Source: Nitrospirota bacterium
GTDB lineage: Bacteria > Nitrospirota > Thermodesulfovibrionia > Thermodesulfovibrionales > SM23-35
Assembly (NCBI GenBank): GCA_014859105.1
Contig: JACUUX010000023.1
Span: forward strand, 1-39,957
Direction of reading: 5' to 3'
Length of the DNA: 39,957 bases
Position 1 is the stretch's first letter, and each line of letters opens with the position of its first letter. The position numbers and the translations under genes were made by a program. Below are positions 28,202 to 35,234 of this stretch, piece after piece. A model generated the notes under the pieces. It was not told the DNA's origin and searched no databases. It saw only the letters and a program-made list of their open reading frames with translations.

Positions 28202-28288
28202 AAACTTTTTATCAGCAATTTACGAATAACTCAAAAAACTTACATACAATAATGTTTCTATTATATAATGAAAAAAAAGGATTTCAAA

Positions 28289-31200
28289 ATGGCACAGAAT
28301 ACACAAATAACCCAACTGTCAAATTACGAAGTTTTAAAAGAGGTGGTTAAAAATTATCCGGGGCTTTTGAGTGCTTCAGAATCTCTGGTATCTGAATTAA
28401 GGCGTTATCCCAAAAACTGGGAATTTATTATAAGGGAAATTCGTAATTATTCTCTGAAAAATTTCTATTTATATGAACGCCATGAAAAGATAATAGATGT
28501 AATCAAGGCTATCACGGATGTATTTTTAGAAGCCATAAACGCTCCTGATAACTTTACACAACAGGCTGCCATTGACGGTCTTTTGTTCTATTTAGAAAAA
28601 ATTCTGATCGACGGGAATAATGACGTTGGTAAATATGCATCGGTATTTAATGAATGCTTTATAAAACTTAGCAGGTTAACCGACGAAAAATTTATCCTGC
28701 TTGTTAAAAATCCTCACCAGCTTAAAAAATTAGGCCAGATATTAATTGAAAGATTACCCTCTGATTTTGACATCGCAGAGTTCAATCAACTTCTTTTAAG
28801 GTTTTTCCTGAAATCTTATGAATATTTTCTATCCGGATATGATCCCTTAAACTGGTTTACACAGACAAAGGATTACACGCTAAGCAAAGACGAATATAAA
28901 ACTTTAGAGGAGTTACTGTATCTTGTATCGCATACAAACCTTAAAGAATTAATTCTACACTTGAACAATATCAAGAAATTTCAAGATCAGGTCCTTCTTT
29001 TAAGAGAGCTTTTAAGTATGCCCGGATATATTCAGTTAGTCAGATATTATGAAGATATCGTAAACAAGTTAATTAAAACGGATGATAAGAATAGAAACCT
29101 GAAGATAAAAATAAATTATCTTCTTAAAATTATGGATACCGAAGCTCTTTCCGGTATTCATGAAAATACCTTAAGGGAAATTAACCGTACAGTTTCAAAC
29201 ATCATAAAAATTGAGAGGCCTGAACAAATAAAGGTAATACTTTCAGATACTTTTAAAATTTTTGAAGAAGCCTTCAGAGAATATCCTGAAACGGTTTTGT
29301 ATTGCATACAGAGTATAGGAAACGAGATATATGGTACAAATGACAGCAAACTTGTTGAATGGTTTATTCAGAGGGTAATTTCTATTGGTTTTCAGTATCC
29401 TGAGATAAAAGGGACTACCGACGAATGGCAGGTCAAATCCAACCGGGCGCATTTAAAAAATATCCGCATGTGGCTCGAATTAATAGAAAACAATCCTAAA
29501 TGGTCTAAATCTCTAATGTCCGCTCTGATTATTAATCTCAGATTGTGCGGAGTACATATAAACGACACCGACGTTTTCCAGAAGGACATAACCAAACTCC
29601 TTAACAGCGATATCAAACCCGTCTACCACCTGGTTAAGATGACGGCAAAACTATTCCCTGTTTACTTCAACGAAATCGGAGCTGAAGGCGAATTGAGGGA
29701 GGTCTCAACCGAAATAGACGAGATTACAGGCAGGGCTGATATTCTTGTGCATTTTTTACGTAAACAGAGTCATGTCGAAAGTAGCGCACGCGTCGTTGAT
29801 TTTATTGAAGAGGCATTCCGTTTCTGGTTGACAAAAGACAAAACCTGTTTGAAAGAATATTTGCCTGAAGATATTTATGACCGAATAAGCACATCAGGCC
29901 GTTATATTGATGAACTGAATATTATCTTCAATTCAATTTTTAAAGAAAAAGGAATACGGAATGTAACCGACCTTTCCCGGCTGACAGATGACGTGATACA
30001 TACACTGACTGAAGATATTCCCCACATTTCAGAAATAGAGAAGAAAAGGTCTTATTTAGCTATCAAATTCTACCAATTGCTCTACAAGAAATATAAACTT
30101 GACCCGCAGGGTATCAAAGAATATTTAAAATATGCCCAGAGCCTGGGGCTTCCAAATACCGACTCCTTAATTTCTGTCTTATATAGAGGCACCATTTATC
30201 AGAAGCTCGAAGGTACTCTGGAATATCTGCAGAAATTGGAGGATACAATCATTTCTCCCGAGCACTATGAACCTATAGAAAATATATTCCGTAAAAGACA
30301 CATAGCAGCAGGGATACCTTCAATATATGGAGTATATCATGAAAGGAAATTCGATGCTCTTGCATTAACCTTCCGCCTGGAAAACCTGGTCAATATACTC
30401 TTTGAAGAACTCATAACCTCACTCAATCTCAAATTTATTACAAGGGCTACTCTTTTCGAGATAGAAAAATACGCGAACTTATTCTACAGGGCTTTGCATC
30501 TTGACGGCATCTCTTCAAACAGGCTCGAAAATACTCTGGAACTGCTAGCCGTTTCGCTTGAGGTGAGAAGATTCTCATTCTCACAGTATGTTGACATATT
30601 CAGTGGATTTTCAGAAGCAGTACAGGATATCCTTAATACATACTACAGCGGTGTTTTCAAAAGCAATCTTAAAAATATAATCCTGCAGGCAGTTACTGAA
30701 AACATAATACCAAAATATCTCGAAAAAAGCAGGTCACAGAGTGAATTCGAGTTAATAAACAAGATATCCGAACAGTTTTTAAGGGAGACTGTTTCGAGCT
30801 CATTTGGACTCCAGCAACTGGATAATTTTATAAGCAGAATTTTAAAAACACTGTTCGAACAGGGTGAGGGCCTGGACGTGAAGACCCTGGATCTATTAAT
30901 GAGCTACGACCCTAAAAAGGCATTATCAAGTATTTATTCTCCCAACAATGCCACTAATGACAGGATCCATTTAGGCATTAAAGGATATAATCTTATAAAA
31001 CTGGCATCCCTGGGGATATCCGTACCCCCGGGATTTATTATAACCACTGAAGTATTCCGATGTGCTAAAGCTATAAATAGATTCAGGCATGTAAGGGAAC
31101 ATCTCGAAGAAGGGATTAAAGAACATCTTTCTGAACTTGAAAAACTCACAGGCAAAAGATTCGGCGACCCTGAAAATCCCCTGCTTGTATCTGTCAGAAG

Positions 31201-32455
31201 TGGTGGAGCAATCTCGATGCCTGGCATGATGATATCTTTCTTAAACGTAGGAATTACCGAGTCCGTTGTCGAAGGCTTAATAAAACAAACCGGTAAACCA
31301 TGGTTTGTATGGGATTGTTACAGGCGCTTTTTACAGTGCTGGGGTATGTCTTACGGCATGGAGAGGGACAATTTTGATGCTATTATCAATTCTTACAAGA
31401 TAAAATACAAGGTGCCAAGGAAAATTATGTTTACACCCGAGCAGATGAAAGAGCTTGCATTTGCATATAGAAATACCATCAAAGATCATGGATTAGAAAT
31501 CATCGATGACCCCAAAACGCAGCTTCAGGTATCAATCGCTCAGGTCTTTGAATCCTGGTTTTCCAGAAAAGCACAGGTATACCGCAAGATAATGGGTATT
31601 TCTGAAAACTGGGGCACAGCTGTAATTGTCCAGGCAATGGTTTATGGTAATTTAGATACAAATTCAGGAACCGGGGTTCTTTTCACACGTAATCCTCAGG
31701 AGGCAGGAGATAAAGTAATGTTATGGGGCGATTTTGCCACAGGAGCACAGGGAGAGGATATTGTTTCAGGACTTGTAATGACGCTGCCAATATCGAACGA
31801 GCAGAAACCAATAGAAGACAGGGCATATGAAATTTCATTCGAGGATGCCTTTCCTGAATTATATGATGAGATGCTCGGCATAGCCAAGCATCTCATATAT
31901 TCAGAGAGATGGGGTGCACAGGAAATCGAATTCACATTCGAAGGTAAAGACAAAAACGAACTTTATATATTACAGGCTCGTGATATGGCTGTGACAAGAA
32001 AAGAAAGTTTTGCTACATTTGTTCCTTCCGGGAAGCTTTCATCCAGCTATTTATCGAGAGGTATCGGCATTGGTGGCGGTGCAATCAGCGGAAGAGTTGT
32101 TTTTGATTTAGACGATATACAGAATTTCAGGCAAAAGGACCCCTCTACACAGCTAATATTGATTAGATCAGATACTGTTCCTGACGATATAACGCATATT
32201 TCTGCAGCAGATGGACTTCTAACTGCCCGGGGTGGATCAACATCTCATGCTGCCATCATTGCTAACCGTCTTGGAAAAACATGTGTTGTAGGGTGCAATA
32301 AATTATTAGTATGGGAAAATGAAAAAAAATGTAAGCTTAACAGGCGTATAATAAAAGTGGGTGATTTCCTGAGTATTGATGGACGTAATGGAGCCGTCTA
32401 CACGGGTAAACATAAATTAGAGCTTGTGAGGGCTGAAATGCAAACCGATTTATAA
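28289..32455 (+). CDS. Giant PPDK-like phosphotransferase lacking the PEP-binding barrel
   Basis: 1388-residue protein. Residues ~900-1260 match the ATP-binding domain of pyruvate phosphate dikinase/PEP synthase (IKGYNLIKLASLGISVPPGF, SVRSGGAISMPGMM, GTGVLFTRNPQEA). Next comes the swivelling phosphohistidine domain, with catalytic His in TARGGSTSHAAI near 1319. The protein then ends about 70 residues later, so the C-terminal TIM barrel that binds PEP/pyruvate is absent. The first ~900 residues are helix-rich, Leu/Lys/Glu-rich, with no signal peptide or recognised domain. By analogy with glucan dikinases and rifampin phosphotransferase, it may split ATP to a phospho-His and pass the beta-phosphate to a non-pyruvate acceptor chosen by the N-terminal part. 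Start choice: ATG 28289 has AAGGA seven bases upstream; ATG 28268 overlaps a TATAAT. GAPDH-like gene follows 50 bases later. Confidence 0.88.
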   Translation: MAQNTQITQLSNYEVLKEVVKNYPGLLSASESLVSELRRYPKNWEFIIREIRNYSLKNFYLYERHEKIIDVIKAITDVFLEAINAPDNFTQQAAIDGLLFYLEKILIDGNNDVGKYASVFNECFIKLSRLTDEKFILLVKNPHQLKKLGQILIERLPSDFDIAEFNQLLLRFFLKSYEYFLSGYDPLNWFTQTKDYTLSKDEYKTLEELLYLVSHTNLKELILHLNNIKKFQDQVLLLRELLSMPGYIQLVRYYEDIVNKLIKTDDKNRNLKIKINYLLKIMDTEALSGIHENTLREINRTVSNIIKIERPEQIKVILSDTFKIFEEAFREYPETVLYCIQSIGNEIYGTNDSKLVEWFIQRVISIGFQYPEIKGTTDEWQVKSNRAHLKNIRMWLELIENNPKWSKSLMSALIINLRLCGVHINDTDVFQKDITKLLNSDIKPVYHLVKMTAKLFPVYFNEIGAEGELREVSTEIDEITGRADILVHFLRKQSHVESSARVVDFIEEAFRFWLTKDKTCLKEYLPEDIYDRISTSGRYIDELNIIFNSIFKEKGIRNVTDLSRLTDDVIHTLTEDIPHISEIEKKRSYLAIKFYQLLYKKYKLDPQGIKEYLKYAQSLGLPNTDSLISVLYRGTIYQKLEGTLEYLQKLEDTIISPEHYEPIENIFRKRHIAAGIPSIYGVYHERKFDALALTFRLENLVNILFEELITSLNLKFITRATLFEIEKYANLFYRALHLDGISSNRLENTLELLAVSLEVRRFSFSQYVDIFSGFSEAVQDILNTYYSGVFKSNLKNIILQAVTENIIPKYLEKSRSQSEFELINKISEQFLRETVSSSFGLQQLDNFISRILKTLFEQGEGLDVKTLDLLMSYDPKKALSSIYSPNNATNDRIHLGIKGYNLIKLASLGISVPPGFIITTEVFRCAKAINRFRHVREHLEEGIKEHLSELEKLTGKRFGDPENPLLVSVRSGGAISMPGMMISFLNVGITESVVEGLIKQTGKPWFVWDCYRRFLQCWGMSYGMERDNFDAIINSYKIKYKVPRKIMFTPEQMKELAFAYRNTIKDHGLEIIDDPKTQLQVSIAQVFESWFSRKAQVYRKIMGISENWGTAVIVQAMVYGNLDTNSGTGVLFTRNPQEAGDKVMLWGDFATGAQGEDIVSGLVMTLPISNEQKPIEDRAYEISFEDAFPELYDEMLGIAKHLIYSERWGAQEIEFTFEGKDKNELYILQARDMAVTRKESFATFVPSGKLSSSYLSRGIGIGGGAISGRVVFDLDDIQNFRQKDPSTQLILIRSDTVPDDITHISAADGLLTARGGSTSHAAIIANRLGKTCVVGCNKLLVWENEKKCKLNRRIIKVGDFLSIDGRNGAVYTGKHKLELVRAEMQTDL

Positions 32456-32505: not shown

Positions 32506-33780
32506 ATGGAAAAGAAAAGAATAAAAACTATTTCAAACAGTAAACCCGTCCTCGGCATAAACGGTCTCGGAAGAATTGGTAAATTAACACTCTGGAATCA
32601 TATCGGCAGAAAATTCTTTTCTGAGATTGTCGTAAACATCGGCAGAAAGGCTGGAACCAAACTCGAGGACATAGCCCTTTATATAGAAAAGGATTCTACA
32701 TATGGCCTATTACATAGATATCTCCATGGATACAAAACACAGAGATTATTCGATAATCTAAACGAAGAAAAAGGTACAACGACAATAGATGGGGTGCCGG
32801 TAACCATTCTCAGGGAAACGCGTAACCCGGCAAATATCCCATGGAGGGAATACGGCGTGAAAGTTGTTGTTGAGGCTACCGGAAAATTTACAAATCCAAC
32901 TGCTCCAGTCAATTCAAAAGACGGCTCTGTACGAGGTCACCTTGAGGCTGGAGCAGAGAAAGTCATAGTCTCTGCGCCTTTCAAGGTTAAAGAAAAAGAT
33001 ATTTCTCTGCCCAAAGATATCGTAACTATAGTAACGGGAATTAATGAACAGGAATATGACCACACCAGACATCATATTATTTCCGGGGCATCCTGTACCA
33101 CAACTTGTCTTGCACATATGGTTAAACCTCTTCTTGATTATTTCGGCTCCGAAAAGATAATCAGTGCTTCAATGGACACAGTTCATGCTGCCACCGGAAC
33201 TCAAGCGGTACTGGACAGACTACCTAAGGCAGGTGCAACAGATCTGAGGAAAACAAGGAGTGTAATGAATAATATAATCCTTACAACTACCGGTGCTGCT
33301 AAAACCCTGGGGCTGGTTATCCCTGAAATGAACAAAATAGGCTTCATGGCAGAATCAGTGCGTGTTCCAATTTCTACCGGTTCACTCATCATTCTTGCAG
33401 TTACCCTTTATGATGAGCCGGATAAGGCTCCTGTTAATAGAAACATTATAAATAACATATATCGTGAAGCTGCACAGAGGGAAAAGAGAGGATACATCAA
33501 ATATACTGATGAGCAGAATGTATCCTCGGATCTAATCGGATTATATGGCCCTGCCACAATTATTGAAGGACATGAAACACATACAAGAACTGCCAATATA
33601 TCTCTGAACATAAGAAAATTGTATAAAATACCACGTGAAGCAGCAGCATCTGTCCCGGAGAATATAGAGATTCCCATCACTAATGCAGCCATATATGGAT
33701 GGTATGACAACGAACTCGGAAGCTACACCAACATTCTGGGTGACCTTACAGTAAAGATAGCATCAATGGTTTATCAGTAA
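32506..33780 (+). CDS. Divergent, long GAPDH-family dehydrogenase
   Basis: 424 residues against ~335 for ordinary glyceraldehyde-3-phosphate dehydrogenase. NAD-binding start GINGLGRIGKLTLWNHIGR, active-site block SGASCTTTCLAH (canonical SNASCTTNCLAP, so the Cys is kept but two Asn positions and the Pro differ), His partner in DTVHAATG, and C-terminal WYDNELGSYTN are recognisable. Extra residues lie at the N-terminus and after the first strand (VNIGRKAGTKLEDIALYIEK). It probably oxidises an aldehyde phosphate, but a changed substrate or cofactor is likely. Start choice: ATG 32506 has AAAGGGGA eight bases upstream; a TTG at 32485 is less likely. It follows the PPDK-like gene on the same strand, probably co-transcribed. 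Confidence 0.85.
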   Translation: MEKKRIKTISNSKPVLGINGLGRIGKLTLWNHIGRKFFSEIVVNIGRKAGTKLEDIALYIEKDSTYGLLHRYLHGYKTQRLFDNLNEEKGTTTIDGVPVTILRETRNPANIPWREYGVKVVVEATGKFTNPTAPVNSKDGSVRGHLEAGAEKVIVSAPFKVKEKDISLPKDIVTIVTGINEQEYDHTRHHIISGASCTTTCLAHMVKPLLDYFGSEKIISASMDTVHAATGTQAVLDRLPKAGATDLRKTRSVMNNIILTTTGAAKTLGLVIPEMNKIGFMAESVRVPISTGSLIILAVTLYDEPDKAPVNRNIINNIYREAAQREKRGYIKYTDEQNVSSDLIGLYGPATIIEGHETHTRTANISLNIRKLYKIPREAAASVPENIEIPITNAAIYGWYDNELGSYTNILGDLTVKIASMVYQ

Positions 33781-34753: not shown

Positions 34754-35234
34754 ATGAAAGAGAGATTCACGAATATACCGGAGAGATTGGCGGATCTTGT
34801 GGATCTCGCGAATAACCTATGGTGGAGCTGGCATCCTGCAGCCAGGATGCTGTTTAACTGGAGTTGATGTGTGGCTTAACAATCCAATTCCACAAATGGA
34901 GGCCAGCGGGACAAGTGGAATGAAGGCATCATTAAACGGTGTGCCACACCTCAGTATTCTCGACGGCTGGTGGATAGAGGGATATAATGGGAAAAATGGA
35001 TGGGCTTTTGAAGGAAAAGGTGATGACAGCGATGCAGAGGCTATTTATAATTTCATAGAGAGAGAAATAATACCTTTATATTACAGGGTTAACGAATCAG
35101 GTATTCCTGTAGAATGGGTTAAAGTCATGAAAGAAGCTGTAAAGAGCACCGGTGCCATGTTCAGTACCAGAAGAATGGTAAAAGAATATGTTCTCAAATT
35201 CTATCAAAAAGCGATTAAAAAGGAGGAGGTATGA
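34754..35234 (+). pseudogene. Alpha-glucan phosphorylase reduced to its two ends
   Basis: ATG at 34754 begins MKERFTNIPERLADLVDLAN, then NLWWSWHPAARMLFNW, the characteristic N-terminus of bacterial GT35 glucan phosphorylases, and stops at TGA 34865. Directly at this point, in another frame, the C-terminal part continues: VDVWLNNPIPQMEASGTSGM, then NGVPHLSILDGWWIEGYNG, which carries part of the PLP/phosphate-site region, and ends at 35234. Several hundred residues between, with most of the active site including the PLP-lysine region, are gone, and the junction is out of frame. The intact tail overlaps the UspA start by four bases, so the operon tail may still be translated. Confidence 0.85.

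Follow-up and report, generated by a model that had tools for sequence, protein, structure and literature searches.

A barrel-less PPDK-like dikinase of Nitrospirota and its near-obligate GAPDH-like partner

Contig JACUUX010000023.1 of the Nitrospirota assembly GCA_014859105.1 (positions 1 to 39,957 of the forward strand; hereafter the window, meaning the whole 39,957-nucleotide stretch analysed) encodes a PPDK-like dikinase without the phosphoenolpyruvate (PEP)/pyruvate barrel of that enzyme, directly followed by a gene for a GAPDH-like dehydrogenase. A previous interpretation of the same DNA, made by a model from its letters and open reading frames (the sequence-only reading), had described the dikinase as a PPDK-like protein lacking the barrel and carrying about 900 unexplained N-terminal residues. 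Dikinases as a class are already known; the main new finding presented here is its near-obligate GAPDH-like partner. The features of the locus are collected in Table 1.

Table 1. Features of the locus. Residues are numbered with ATG 28268 as 1; subtract 7 for the start at 28289.
Feature	Positions	Strand	Residues	Basis or remark
Barrel-less PPDK-like dikinase	28289..32455	+		Open reading frame; Pfam, NCBIfam and PDB matches; orthologues in 43/296 Nitrospirota genomes
N-terminal helical region, no known family	28289..30943	+	up to 892	Database searches and AlphaFold2 (AF2) model
Conserved block 1	29288..29812	+	341-515	Invariant H395, D433, R477, T481, D484, D491, R498, K499, H502
Conserved block 2	30203..30502	+	646-745	Invariant S663, E671, K676, R677, H678, S685, G688, Y690, E692, K694
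PPDK-type ATP-grasp domain	30944..32017	+	893-1250	K905, R977, E1221, Q1236, R1238; groups with PPDK
Phosphohistidine swivel domain	32018..32452	+	1251-1395	GGSTSH with H1327, codon 32246-32248
Dedicated GAPDH-like dehydrogenase	32506..33780	+	424 aa	Same strand, 50 bases downstream of the dikinase gene
Glucan phosphorylase remnant	34754..35219	+		Internal deletion; neighbouring gene that probably does not belong to the system

The dikinase reading frame (28268..32455, forward strand) spans 1395 codons and is conserved in several families, which is far beyond chance. Translation from ATG 28268 gives a protein of 1395 aa and from ATG 28289 one of 1388 aa. The second, which the sequence-only reading had adopted, is probably the real start because AAGGA lies just upstream of it, with nothing comparable ahead of 28268. 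PPDK_N matched the protein in three stretches, the best covering residues 944-1170 (E 4e-33), and the PEP-utilizers mobile domain matched residues 1296-1375 (E 5e-18), both above the Pfam cut-off. NCBIfam scored the protein at 408 bits for the PPDK type (TIGR01828, cut-off 843) versus 95 bits for the PpsA type, and its ATP-grasp and swivel domains are 36% identical to the PPDK of the same genome. Alignment placed K905, R977, E1221, Q1236, R1238, T1325 and H1327 opposite K22, R92, E323, Q335, R337, T453 and H455 of PPDK. All seven residues are unchanged in 26 of 26 members of what we term the core form of the family; nine members of a more distant form share them except at R1238 (Lys in three) and T1325 (Ala in one), and H1327 is invariant throughout. 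The ATP-binding and phosphohistidine domains are thus intact, as had been read from the sequence, and the alignment revealed no loss of ATP-binding residues that would speak against that reading.

The absence of the barrel was likewise borne out. There is no Pfam match to the PEP-utilizers_C barrel, and the protein ends after the His domain. A phmmer search aligned residues 898-1381 with residues 14-508 of C. symbiosum PPDK (E 3.5e-87). The match thus stops short of the barrel, and the dikinase ends at the point from which PPDK continues into its PEP/pyruvate barrel. A barrel encoded by a separate gene could in principle complete such a protein. The draft genome holds PEP-utilizers_C only in an ordinary PPDK, two PpsA proteins and a decayed PpsA remnant, and no intact free-standing barrel gene was found in it, which speaks against this possibility as far as the draft goes.

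Residues 1-892 gave no significant match to Pfam, NCBIfam or the PDB, whether searched as a single sequence or as a profile (weak hits below the cut-offs were ignored), so that the N-terminal portion is indeed as unexplained as first described. Two AF2 models were built on shallow alignments of five sequences, with pLDDT values of 62.6 and 54.4. Both are all-helical and of low confidence; the former (pTM 0.38) has no strand in residues 1-892. Fold searches with these models returned generic helical or solenoid matches only. With regard to a HEAT/ARM-type superhelix, these were karyopherins and similar proteins, the highest Z-score being 9.7 (243 residues aligned, rmsd 11 Å). Conservation is more informative. 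Measured against 25 relatives of the core form, the window protein has a mean identity of 65% in block 1 and 63% in block 2, compared with 64% in both the ATP-grasp and the His domain; for distant members the corresponding values are 30%, 34%, 31% and 33%. About 20 polar or charged residues of the N-terminal region are invariant in 35 sequences, including K608 and Y609 in addition to those of the two blocks, and block 2 carries the motif RKRHIAAGIPSxYGxYHExKFDAL. Residues 1-340, by comparison, are specific to the core form, with 13% identity to distant forms. Because the two blocks are conserved as the catalytic domains are, and because of the invariant polar residues, the N-terminal region is most likely an acceptor-binding module, and the pattern of invariant residues would fit a domain that binds an anionic compound as ligand or acts on it catalytically. 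The suggestion that a helical N-terminus serves as the acceptor module is accordingly stronger than before as regards the module; its helices still come from the low-confidence models. One of the 35 N-terminal family sequences also matches an NMT1-like solute-binding domain (E 8e-15), possibly a fusion or a misread start, and the others do not contain that domain.

Using the N-terminal protein as a query, we found 30 core and 13 distant forms of the dikinase among the 296 sampled Nitrospirota genomes. Where complete, core proteins have approximately 1360-1430 aa and distant ones, which are 25-31% identical, approximately 1400-1510 aa. A profile search retrieved 94 of 298 relatives, and certain genomes hold both forms. 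A tree built from the ATP-grasp and His domains gives one group each for the core, distant, PPDK and PpsA sequences. Core and distant forms are joined with a support of 94/86 (not starred), and together they adjoin PPDK and lie far from PpsA, the separating branch having a support of 100/100. No match to the dikinase was obtained outside Nitrospirota in a single contig scan with short peptide patterns of one protein, which catches close relatives only; other phyla were not systematically searched. There was also no match on plasmids or viral contigs as carriers, no PADLOC match that would point to anti-phage defence, and searches of the available literature found no paper on the dikinase/GAPDH-like pair. 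One genome that is 56% complete (G344) has two such pairs, on contigs C5 and C8 (L115, L114), and is possibly a mixed bin.

The sequence-only reading had pointed to a GAPDH-like gene nearby and had called for a check of how conserved the neighbours of the dikinase gene are. The gene is real, and it is the sole neighbour that recurs across families beside the core dikinase, the remaining neighbours varying from family to family. ATG 32506, which has AAAGGGG upstream, is a likelier start for it than TTG 32485. Within the 296 genomes the encoded protein belongs to a subfamily set apart from other GAPDHs, with matches of at least 55% identity as against at most 48% for the ordinary enzymes. The subfamily occurs in 31 genomes, namely all 30 with a core dikinase and one further genome (Fisher test for co-occurrence with the core dikinase, 3e-40, with relatedness ignored). 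A further 53 genomes, outside this sample, gave much the same result: the gene was present in 36 of the 37 core-form genomes, in several as contig-end fragments, and in none of the 14 with the distant form only or the two with neither form. The dikinase gene of the sole exception (G408) runs into a contig end.

The two genes are also linked. In 25 of 25 measured loci the GAPDH-like gene lies on the strand of the dikinase, with gaps of -68 to 230 bases as computed from mechanically assigned starts. In one genome (G140) both are located at contig ends, and in two (G154 and G244) they are truly unlinked, yet both are kept. Distances between dikinases correlate with those between GAPDH-like proteins (r 0.90; Mantel 0/5000), although shared ancestry alone would yield much of this. 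The one genome with the GAPDH-like gene and without this type of dikinase is G232 (contig C74, 66085-67284; L092 6086-7285). Its copy does not contain the C-terminal insertion and adjoins a GlgC-like gene.

The GAPDH-like protein retains the catalytic and phosphate-site residues of type I GAPDH. SCTT with its catalytic Cys is conserved, as are the catalytic His, TGA in TTGAAK, Arg in VRVP and the motif WYDNE. It differs from that enzyme in having family-specific insertions in several loops and in belonging to a subfamily of its own that is tied to the dikinase. In the aligned members another residue replaces the Asp that contacts the adenosine ribose of NAD, beside a four-residue insertion, from which a preference for NADP might be inferred. 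The protein scores 317.7 bits against NCBIfam GAPDH-I, below the cut-off of 367.2.

The nearly exceptionless joint inheritance of the dikinase and its own unusual GAPDH suggests that they are probably an undescribed metabolic enzyme pair. On balance, we favor a two-gene enzyme system in which a dikinase with a swivelling His works with a dedicated GAPDH-like dehydrogenase and has a small anionic metabolite as its acceptor. In such a system the ATP-grasp domain would phosphorylate H1327 from ATP, a step suggested by analogy with PPDK and RPH (rifampin phosphotransferase), and the swivel domain would move the phosphoryl group to the helical N-terminal domain instead of to a PEP/pyruvate barrel. 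The N-terminal domain would then hand the phosphate to, or receive it from, a small anionic metabolite, which the invariant Arg, Lys and His residues of blocks 1 and 2 would bind. This metabolite is probably tied to GAPDH chemistry, and the GAPDH-like protein would act in sequence with the dikinase, as a dedicated dehydrogenase on its product or precursor. In the simplest version the dikinase would make or consume an acyl phosphate (3-phosphoglycerate/1,3-bisphosphoglycerate or another phospho-sugar acid of that kind), which the GAPDH-like enzyme in turn would reduce or form; that the two share an acyl phosphate is a tentative guess. Narrower still, and doubtful, is a PPDK-derived "phosphoglycerate dikinase" with a new helical acceptor domain and a private GAPDH, which would turn a phospho-sugar acid into the corresponding acyl phosphate or back, spending or gaining ATP/AMP (and pyrophosphate, PPi). 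The sequence-only reading had offered a polysaccharide or a sugar phosphate as the acceptor. The sugar-phosphate side of that proposal has gained strength because the GAPDH-like gene is a near-obligate partner; the polysaccharide side has lost ground, as the glucan phosphorylase neighbour occurs in one family only.

Several observations weigh against the two-gene system. The genome also contains an ordinary GAPDH gene adjoining PGK, together with extra GAPDH and PGK copies, and these would make a plain role between 3-phosphoglycerate and glyceraldehyde 3-phosphate redundant; the redundancy speaks in favour of some special substrate, direction or condition. The distant dikinases keep the N-terminal blocks yet have no such GAPDH, so the latter is not needed for dikinase chemistry as such, and conversely G232 has the GAPDH-like gene and no dikinase of this type. 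The N-terminal fold is seen only in low-confidence models with generic helical matches, and both the Mantel and the Fisher statistics leave shared ancestry in.

The existence of distant dikinases without the GAPDH-like gene would also fit a regulatory pair, in which the GAPDH-like protein controls the dikinase, either by sensing NAD(P)H or triose phosphate or as a target of phosphorylation, and the acceptor of the dikinase has no relation to GAPDH chemistry. The insertions of the GAPDH-like protein could be docking loops, its NAD-ribose Asp is lost, and the first 340 residues of the dikinase are peculiar to the core form. However, a pure sensor would not need the catalytic and phosphate-site residues, all of which are retained, and both genes persist even when unlinked. 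We regard a regulatory pair as unlikely, though the strongest of the alternatives.

Somewhat less probable is that the pair runs in the direction of PPi/AMP salvage, the phosphoryl group passing from an acyl phosphate made by the GAPDH-like protein through the N-terminal domain to H1327 and on to ATP, formed from the AMP and PPi of sulfate activation. The PPDK-type rather than PpsA-type character of the ATP-grasp domain, seen in both the tree and the NCBIfam scores, agrees with this, as does the presence of AprA (APS reductase) above its curated cut-off in all 30 carriers of the first sample. Within the window's own family AprA was found in 16 of 17 carriers and was missing from three non-carriers, but this contrast is confounded by completeness and relatedness. 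AprA is, moreover, present in most genomes of the class, pair or no pair, and some carriers of the pair do not have it, including one that is 91% complete (G329). We thus rejected AprA as a strict correlate of the pair and treat it as suggestive; the direction of a reversible enzyme is in any case not readable from sequence.

A dikinase acting on glucan or another polysaccharide, and so a counterpart in bacteria to the function of glucan water dikinase (GWD), is very unlikely. A glucan phosphorylase gene or remnant lies near the pair in six loci, and the GAPDH-like gene of G232 stands beside a GlgC-like gene, but the six loci all belong to one family, and in other families the neighbours differ and the glucan phosphorylase gene is missing. 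Pfam detected no carbohydrate-binding module in the window protein or its 34 relatives. GWD is likewise a large protein with a long N-terminal part, phosphohistidine and ATP-binding domains and no PEP barrel. Its His domain precedes the ATP-grasp domain, however, and it carries starch-binding modules, whereas here the ATP-grasp domain comes first and no such modules were found. Finally, the missing barrel might suggest a degenerate or misassembled PPDK that lost it in a fusion and has no function, an explanation we dismiss because the architecture and the invariant catalytic residues are kept in dozens of genomes and the same genome has a complete, ordinary PPDK.

Of the characterized systems, PPDK is the closest, both in the tree and in having an ATP-grasp domain followed by a swivelling phosphohistidine domain with the same ATP-site and His residues. 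The dikinase described here differs from it in the lack of the C-terminal barrel, in approximately 890 extra N-terminal residues and in the near-obligate GAPDH-like partner; from PpsA it differs in having neither the PpsA-type ATP-grasp domain nor the C-terminal PEP/pyruvate barrel. Other members of the dikinase family combine an ATP-grasp domain and a swivel His with a non-PEP acceptor domain. In RPH, as in PPDK, the swivelling His shuttles between two remote sites (PMC4844700; PMC12167813), and the domain order of RPH is ATP-grasp, acceptor domain, His (PMC4844700). The two-component small-molecule dikinases HpeHI, CreHI and PpsAB belong to the same broad type (PMC12167813). Like these enzymes, the dikinase would use an acceptor domain other than the PEP barrel. 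That domain lies between the ATP-grasp and His domains in RPH and on a separate chain with the His in the two-component enzymes, whereas the candidate here is helical and N-terminal, giving the order N-terminal region, ATP-grasp, His. The ATP-grasp domains of RPH and the two-component dikinases are also PEP-synthase-like and not PPDK-like. Kinship to GWD and RPH, raised by the sequence-only reading, therefore holds for the mechanism only, as the domain orders differ and the ATP-grasp domain groups with PPDK.

Further downstream, the decayed glucan phosphorylase that had been recognized from the sequence is genuine. It consists of the codons for residues 1-35 joined to those for residues 578-699 of a 701-aa GlgP, the result of one internal deletion. 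Intact GlgP copies of 701-709 aa lie near the pair solely in other members of the window's family (L074, L075, L077 and L078). Elsewhere in the draft genome, the PpsA remnant (contig C119, 6254-6648; L070) comprises pieces 88% and 74% identical to the intact PpsA on C102. Three more proteins with PPDK_N and without PEP-utilizers_C (850-868 aa; C48 77249-78169, C148 66951-67865 and C5 8377-9513; L066, L067 and L068) carry different accessory domains. A second, divergent phosphoglycerate kinase (C112, 9743-11044; L096 7744-9045) is 70-90% conserved in 46 of the 296 Nitrospirota genomes. It was considered as a third partner and ruled out, since it does not co-occur with the dikinase/GAPDH pair.

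Dikinases with unknown acceptors have been described as a large unexplored group (PMC4844700). The proteins described here add a whole dikinase family with a new acceptor-domain architecture, in which a private GAPDH provides a strong and testable clue to the substrate. If the dikinase and the GAPDH-like enzyme do act in sequence, they would carry out an undescribed central carbon reaction in Nitrospirota, many of which are, judging by AprA, dissimilatory sulfur organisms. The PPDK-type ATP-grasp domain would allow an AMP/PPi-linked direction, and carbon flux might then be tied to AMP and pyrophosphate. Should the enzyme prove to be a phosphoglycerate dikinase, these bacteria would have, in addition to PGK and GAPDH, another route connecting phosphoglycerate with triose phosphate, one linked to AMP/PPi.

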